This document shows, one piece after another, positions 44,983 to 45,645 of a stretch of DNA of 64,000 nucleotides. The notes beneath the pieces were generated by a model. It had not been told where the DNA came from, did no database searches, and worked only from the letters and a program-made list of their open reading frames with translations. Every line of letters begins with the position of its first letter. The stretch's first letter is position 1. The translations under genes and the position numbers were made by a program. Origin of the DNA: Terriglobales bacterium (GTDB lineage: Bacteria; Acidobacteriota; Terriglobia; Terriglobales; Acidobacteriaceae); NCBI GenBank assembly GCA_035651995.1, contig DASRER010000020.1:186001-250000 (forward strand), given 5' to 3'.

Positions 44983-45645
44983 ATGACCTACATCGACCAC
45001 GACCGCGCGGCCGCGCCTGATCCGCTCAAGCGCGGTGTACGCATCGCCGTTCTGCTGGCGCTGCTCGGCGCGGCGATATATCTGTCGCTGCCCGCGCATT
45101 TCAGCGGCCAGCCCTTTCCCGATCTGGCCGCCAATCTCGACCCGCTGGCTGCCGAGTTCAACCGCAACGCGGGCAAGGTCCGCGTGGTGCTCATCACCGA
45201 TCCGACTTGAGGCACCTGCCTCCTCGGAGTTTCCGAGGTGCAGCGCAAGGTTTTTGACCGCCTGCCCGGCGATCGCGTGAGCGTGACCGCCATCTGGGTG
45301 CCGGTGAACCGCGAGCAGAGCTGGGACGAGCTGCAAACCAACGCGCATCGCGAGCAGCCGCGCTGGCTGACCGACCCGCGCGCCGTCAACTTTACCGACT
45401 CGACGCGCCGCGCCGCCATGGCGTGGGCGCCGGTGCTCGACATCAAGCCGCTCTACGGCGTGCAGCTTCCGGCCTGGGACGTCTACCTGGTCTTCGGCCC
45501 CGACGCGCGCTGGGGCCCGCCCGGCGCTCCGCCGCCCGCGCCCGCCTTCTGGATGCACCAGCTCTCCACCGGCGCGCCCGCCAACAGCATCCGGCTCAAC
45601 CCCGACCAGCTCCGCGCGCGCATCGAAGCGATGCTGCCGAAATAG
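44983..45645 (+). CDS. Membrane-anchored thioredoxin-like selenoprotein with UGTC motif (TGA-encoded Sec)
   Basis: Read through one in-frame TGA (45208-45210), the gene encodes 220 residues. These are a short cytoplasmic N-terminus, one membrane helix (VRIAVLLALLGAAIYLSL, about 19-37), then VRVVLITDPT-U76-GTC79-LLGVSEVQRKVFDRLPGD and a soluble domain ending LRARIEAMLPK. The strand VRVVLIT before U-x-x-C is the thioredoxin-fold layout. Both sides of the TGA share frame, codon use and a continuous fold. The downstream half has no start codon of its own with a ribosome-binding site. A SECIS-like hairpin follows the TGA. The alternative, a nonsense mutation, is less likely because the TGA sits exactly at a redox Cys position. 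Confidence 0.82.
45216..45243 (+). promoter_or_regulatory. SECIS-like hairpin of the UGTC selenoprotein
   Basis: The upper stem CCTCGGA-GTT-TCCGAGG (7 bp, loop GTT) sits on a lower stem CTGC/GCAG (4 bp) across a small internal loop. The loop G (45229) is 18 nt after the TGA, within the range usual for bacterial SECIS elements that bind SelB. Confidence 0.75.

Follow-up and report, generated by a model that had tools for sequence, protein, structure and literature searches.

Thioredoxin-fold proteins of the ResA/TlpA/DsbE (CcmG) type carry one N-terminal membrane helix and a CxxC-type motif where the first helix of the fold begins. Here we describe a gene with the same predicted architecture that a stop codon seems to interrupt. 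It lies at positions 44,983 to 45,645 of a 64,000-nucleotide stretch of DNA from a Terriglobales bacterium (the window; G000:C20:186001-250000 in a 3.66 Mb genome of 48 contigs that is 99.35% complete). An in-frame TGA divides the gene at the first position of a U-x-x-C motif. Despite this appearance, a comparison with homologs indicates that the gene most likely encodes a membrane-anchored thioredoxin-like selenoprotein. ResA/TlpA/DsbE-type proteins are among the best structural neighbors of the predicted product (Z of 10 to 11.7), and they share its fold, its single helix, and the location of its motif. The window family differs from them in having selenocysteine (Sec) in place of the first cysteine and no proline at the likely cis-proline site. 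Identity to the PDB entries with Z of at least 10 is only 7–18%.

Several described selenoproteins with UxxC motifs are thioredoxin-like by their names. A 2026 table of 119 selenoprotein families (PMC13188914) includes Trx, a thiol:disulfide interchange protein, and the DsbG-like NF041057, as well as SaoT (NF040730), GOS_C (NF045500), and the HUIPC-motif family (NF047660). Nothing in that table is recognizably the same as our family. The predicted protein (P0001) matched no NCBIfam model at E ≤ 10, and so scored over no curated cut-off for SaoT or the other thioredoxin-like selenoprotein models. Its one Pfam match was at chance level (E = 0.11), with none to the Thioredoxin, Redoxin, or AhpC-TSA models. 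Among 55 members of the family (set A2, described below), PF00085 matched 15 at E ≤ 1 (best 5.4e-4), PF08534 matched two (best 0.042), and PF00578 matched one. The best matches of their thioredoxin domains to NCBIfam selenoprotein models were weak: TIGR02187 at E = 0.089 and NF041057, the only one of the tabulated models above to turn up among the matches listed, in a single member at E = 0.21.

Candidates for a prior description are two families from the Global Ocean Sampling (GOS) paper, which we know from their descriptions: Prx-like 2 (weak similarity to pfam04592; UxxC, in some cases UxxU) and Prx-like 3 (weak similarity to pfam08534; UxxC). One of the 55 members does match pfam04592 (E = 0.14), two match PF08534 as noted, and two have UxxU, so our family could be one of these under another name. 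Given how weak all of the matches to known selenoprotein models are, and that nothing alike was recognized in the 2026 table, we consider this identity unlikely, though it deserves some weight. Other open-access literature (including PMC12013277, PMC9312934, PMC2398784, and PMC5029168), as far as its text is accessible, describes no closer family. Our best reading is that this is a new family of extracytoplasmic thioredoxin-fold selenoproteins. The first-pass annotation, which was made from the DNA letters alone, had not recognized a described selenoprotein family, and this still holds as far as the Pfam and NCBIfam libraries and the open-access papers reach. The family is easily missed, since standard gene callers cut genes of this kind in two at the TGA, and did so in the window.

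The interrupted gene and its relatives

The features of the locus, with the basis for each, are as follows.

44983..45645, + strand: predicted selenoprotein gene, 220 residues with Sec at 76, then TAG (frame and homologs)
45022..45084, + strand: predicted membrane anchor helix, residues 14–34 (helix in the structural model, hydrophobic sequence)
45112..45642, + strand: predicted thioredoxin-fold domain, approximately residues 44–220 (structural model, PDB matches)
45208..45210, + strand: TGA, putatively read as Sec, residue 76 (aligned codon across 119 members)
45208..45219, + strand: U-G-T-C redox motif with the TGA as its first position (translation; motif alignment of set A2)
45222..45238, + strand: apical hairpin of the type of a Sec insertion sequence (SECIS), with arms at 45222–45228 and 45232–45238 and the loop GTT at 45229–45231 (folding, covariation)

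From ATG 44983 the frame runs through 75 codons to the TGA at 45208–45210 and then through another 144 codons to the TAG at 45643–45645; the length of 220 residues counts the TGA as one residue. The first-pass annotation had proposed this continuous frame, split exactly at the U of U-G-T-C, and had called it a probable selenoprotein. Homologs with TGA or Cys, the Sec genes of the host, and covariation in the hairpin all support that reading.

A search with P0001 found three relatives in 60 other genomes, and a contig search added one more (L017, a Pyrinomonadaceae record whose partner in the tree is a member from the same phylum, with support of 99/87). All four have TGA in U-x-x-C. A profile built from these five sequences matched in 48 of 396 genomes from the phylum, counting the window's own. 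Removing duplicates (L018 and L019, of L014 and L013) and one weak outlier (L070, DsbA-like, 20 bits) left the 55 members of set A2. The profile from these 55 matched in 72 of 399 genomes from the class. This search yielded 70 loci: 53 new members with TGA, 11 with neither U nor C, and six that were set aside (duplicates L131, L132, and L123; 26-bit outliers L189 and L190; and a fragment, L191). Seven rows scoring at most 27.4 bits were left out of the locus set. All family counts refer to these searches of phylum genomes, class genomes, and the contig set; a tblastn search of plasmids with two of the members gave no matches.

At the column of the TGA, the 55 members of set A2 have 44 TGA, seven TGC, and four TGT codons. 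Across all 119 members there are 97 TGA codons, 11 Cys codons, and 11 others that encode neither U nor C; none has TAA or TAG. Homologs with Cys at position 76, which the first-pass annotation had suggested looking for, therefore exist, and members with TGA are far more numerous. Sec is thus the usual state in this sample (97 Sec to 11 Cys), unlike most selenoprotein families in the GOS paper, where, according to its authors, Cys homologs far outnumber those with Sec. On the tree of the 55 members, eight changes between Sec and Cys are needed, and at least seven are forced by well-supported branches. In two members (L065 and L069), a second in-frame TGA gives U-x-x-U.

If the TGA were a true stop, a second, separate protein might begin inside the gene. 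The first-pass annotation had seen no start codon with a ribosome-binding site in the downstream part, and this was mistaken: GTG 45238 opens an open reading frame of 135 amino acids, with GGAG 8 nt ahead of it. (This GGAG sits within the hairpin, at window positions 45226–45240, and the possible internal start is missing from most relatives.) However, the codon aligned to GTG 45238 is ATG, GTG, or TTG in just 16 of the 97 TGA-bearing members, the resulting fragment would have neither the first strand nor the active site, and the frame is unbroken in the Cys forms. We regard a separate downstream protein as very improbable.

A nonsense mutation in a thioredoxin-like gene would also leave a frame divided by a single in-frame stop. 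But a pseudogene would not be expected to share its TGA with 96 other members, with TAA or TAG in none of the 119, across a family whose matches come from 39 of 211 genera in the phylum and 41 of 136 in the class (Cys and degenerate forms counted). Residues beyond the TGA are also conserved (W165 in 54 of 55, with one Y; D166 in 51 of 55, with two N, one G, and one K; W177 in all 55), and the hairpin is selected, which leaves decay with a near-negligible chance. Equally implausible is a general change of the code that gives TGA some other amino acid: it would produce the same open frame, but in 25 of the 55 members the first in-frame stop beyond the domain is itself a TGA, the residue found elsewhere at the column is Cys, and a Sec system is present.

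Selenocysteine machinery and the hairpin after the TGA

The first-pass annotation had advised looking for the Sec genes in the same genome, and all of them are there. The window's genome has selA (552 bits), selB (353 bits), and selD (367 bits), each over its cut-off, and a tRNA-Sec (69.5 bits; called SeC by ARAGORN), while the next two matches to the tRNA model (49.1 and 47.0 bits) are tRNA-Ser. Together these make a complete set for decoding Sec. Furthermore, selD itself (L072, G000:C25:28861-29790) has an in-frame TGA at the U-x-x-K site (KAAGUASKL) and is a predicted selenoprotein, which gives recoding in this genome a positive control of its own. In the sample of 396 genomes, selB (called from best E-values) was over the cut-off in 35 of 37 TGA-bearing genomes, as compared to 254 of 396 overall (P = 8e-6, Fisher's exact test). 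One genome with only a Cys member (G381) has neither selB nor tRNA-Sec.

A SECIS-like hairpin at the right distance had been claimed, and it is present. It has a stem of 7 bp and a loop of 3 nt, with the loop 18 nt after the TGA, and lies in the coding frame; a weaker lower stem widens it to 45212–45246. The 45 nt that follow the TGA fold with −18.6 kcal/mol. These values fit the constraints for bacterial SECIS elements in the legend of Fig 2 of PMC13188914 (stem of 4–16 bp, loop of 3–9 nt, spacing of 16–37 nt, minimum free energy of at most −7.5, and a G within the first two positions of the loop). With the stem set to at least 5 bp, 94 of the 97 TGA members satisfy the same constraints (a count made without a null; L154, L155, and L157 are the exceptions). 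A scan of six loci with Rfam at the gathering threshold found nothing besides tRNA-Sec.

Taken alone, the fold in the window does not stand out (z = −1.68, equaled by 10 of 200 shuffles), so the significance of the hairpin comes from comparative evidence. In the 44 TGA members of set A2 (43 distinct sequences), 37 share the starting position of the best hairpin's loop, give or take one base; the other seven differ. Across six pairs, 81.0% of cells are paired (57.2 ± 2.0% in shuffles), a fraction that falls to 27–47% when the partner is shifted by one to three columns. Cells that changed on both sides number 53 (13.8 ± 3.1 in shuffles), and the covariation is 0.613 (0.193 ± 0.028), with none of 500 shuffles as high. 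All six pairs have two-sided changes, which is not telling by itself since 109 of 500 shuffles reach it, and the outermost pair is broken in 23 of the 43 sequences.

Because the hairpin codes for protein, we also used a null of synonymous codons. The TGA members of the first set form 214 of 264 pairs (null 146.2 ± 5.2), whereas the 11 Cys members form 28 of 66 (null 23.4 ± 2.8), a slight excess. In a hold-out set, the 53 TGA members found later, 291 of 318 pairs form (null 180.5 ± 7.4), and 39 of 53 sequences are fully paired, as compared to a mean of 1.5 under the null. A stem of at least 6 bp at the register is found in 42 of 44 TGA members and one of 11 Cys members, and a stem of at least 5 bp in 44 of 44 and three of 11. 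Only the hairpin at its register separates the two groups: the folding energy of the 45 nt, which we tried as a discriminator, fails (mean z of −0.48 for TGA and −0.77 for Cys). Judged from these alignments, the hairpin is under selection, and a conserved, recoded TGA with a hairpin, in a genome that decodes Sec, is strongly supported.

Fold and active site

A model of the protein computed with AlphaFold 2 (AF2) from the 55 sequences of set A2 (mean pLDDT of 89.1, pTM of 0.79) has a helix at residues 14–34 followed by a thioredoxin fold. This agrees with the first-pass annotation, which had proposed one membrane helix and a thioredoxin-like domain with the motif after a β strand: U-G-T-C follows strand E66–72 (VRVVLIT). 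In two of the 55 members, a model of the twin-arginine translocation (Tat) signal matched in place of the anchor. The first PDB matches from Foldseek are of the DsbE, GPX, ResA, CcmG, and Sco types, seven of them at E ≤ 0.001. With VIA-align, the top match is SPOA0173 (Z of 11.7, root-mean-square deviation of 3.0, 131 residues aligned), and the runners-up, which include Etrx1, DsbE, and ResA, are within about 1.5 Z, so no structure stands out. A profile search of PDB sequences gave weak matches alone (best E = 0.022). We conclude that a thioredoxin fold with a membrane anchor is predicted.

R67, P74, U/C76, C79, and W177 are invariant in set A2, and F59, T75, W105, W165, D166, and P185 are nearly so. 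(All 55 aligned rows show Cys as the second redox residue of the motif, though the DNA of L065 and L069 has TGA there.) None of the 55 rows has a proline at residue 165 or 166, the likely cis-proline site. The site was placed by the secondary structure of the model, without superposition, and could be either residue because the alignment to the TlpA-like outliers L189 and L190 ended before this region. The model thus describes a thioredoxin fold that apparently lacks the cis-proline. According to PMC2757866, which cites Su et al. 2007, the cis-proline probably contributes to substrate binding and may shield the CxxC motif from metal.

Metal loci and the proposed role

We took wide neighborhoods for 49 of 54 places in the family, several of them shortened by contig ends, and 16 of the 49 have a mercury-like reading. 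It is based on MerR-type regulators within reach of 12 loci (at L088, the regulator alone) and on MerT-, MerC-, CopZ-, or GDCCVxC-type genes near the family gene. In the sample of neighbors that was scanned, MerC, GDCCVxC, and CopZ were over a cut-off, while several MerT matches and the MerR match were below NCBIfam's. Across the 49 family genomes, MerT (PF02411) has 21 hits, 17 of them over the cut-off; 11 of the 21, in 10 genomes, are within 5 kb of the family gene (nine over the cut-off), where uniform placement would predict 0.048. There are also fusions. L023 joins MerT to a Cys member in a single frame of 343 residues (MerT at 32.9 bits, exactly Pfam's cut-off), and in L112 (6708-7559, − strand; also in L060), a Sec member runs in frame into a heavy-metal-associated (HMA) domain (61.6 bits; cut-off 24.8), with a MerT just 34 bases away. 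The metal link is scattered across the tree, appearing in several branches and needing 11 changes, and a 17-member branch that holds L030–L057 has none in the 13 members with neighborhoods. Our best reading is that the family is partly linked to soft metals.

Members or near relatives of known selenoprotein types from metal loci (GDCCVxC, NF041374; the MerT/CopZ fusion, NF045683; CopZ N-terminal, NF045877; and the DF family, NF049942) adjoin some of the family genes. These are different proteins, and the window family would be the thioredoxin-fold part of such loci.

We put the probability at about 0.88 that the window gene encodes a selenoprotein whose TGA 45208 is recoded, that its product is an anchored extracytoplasmic redox domain, and that part of the family has partners in metal systems. 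SelB and tRNA-Sec would decode the TGA as Sec, guided by the hairpin just downstream; one helix would anchor the product in the membrane with the thioredoxin-fold domain outside the cytoplasm; and U-x-x-C would be a selenol/thiol redox pair, making the protein an extracytoplasmic selenol/thiol oxidoreductase. Some members would work with transport systems of the mercury type (MerT/MerC) and with domains that bind heavy metals, and there the protein would most likely reduce or hand on thiols blocked by soft metals, or the metal itself.

Several observations weigh against this proposal. A strong tRNA-Sec (at least 61 bits) was found in just 30 of 39 TGA-bearing genomes (and in eight of 10 Cys-only genomes); the rest score at most 51.5 bits, like the second-best matches elsewhere. 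Two TGA-bearing genomes, G295 and G319, have neither a strong tRNA-Sec nor selB over the cut-off; both are fragmented assemblies (approximately 950 and 510 contigs). The metal link is missing in 33 of the 49 neighborhoods, and the window's own neighbors are not metal genes: by eye, the upstream one encodes a DnaC-like ATPase and the downstream one is UvrC-like. TM-scores to PDB chains are low (0.28–0.42 by query among the 50 Foldseek matches listed), and all members except L017 come from searches within the window's phylum. Finally, 11 divergent members (L178–L188; 38–98 bits) have neither U nor C (e.g., SPTRPAALAG), which shows that the fold can be kept when the redox pair is lost and argues against the pair being essential everywhere. 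The first-pass annotation had named the absence of selB or tRNA-Sec, along with homologs that have neither Cys nor TGA, as evidence against its reading: the genes are clearly present, while the 11 homologs are of the kind it named and had not been foreseen. Seven of the 11 have SPTR at the active site; all 11 have lost both redox residues and are possibly non-redox binding proteins.

More tentatively, in this Sec-dominated family without cis-proline, the selenol/thiol pair might act outside the cytoplasm, where it would bind or hand on soft metals such as Hg(II) and so feed MerT/MerC-type transporters and HMA domains. We think that such a relay is doubtful but worth considering; if it exists, metal detoxification would have an arm based on selenium. 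That some family genes adjoin genes for mercury- and metal-binding proteins, or are fused to them, suggests a function that can be tested, and the absence of the cis-proline offers a possible chemical reason.

Several selenoprotein-type families meet in some of these loci. In L116, for example, a DF-family-like protein (L116:6217-6588; 51.6 bits against a cut-off of 70) is encoded between a MerR-type gene, MerT, and the family gene. Elsewhere in the window's genome, at L192:11225-12531 (G000:C25), what looks by eye like a MerR-type regulator is followed by a frame of 269 codons with a MerT match of 169.8 bits; selA is about 6 kb away.
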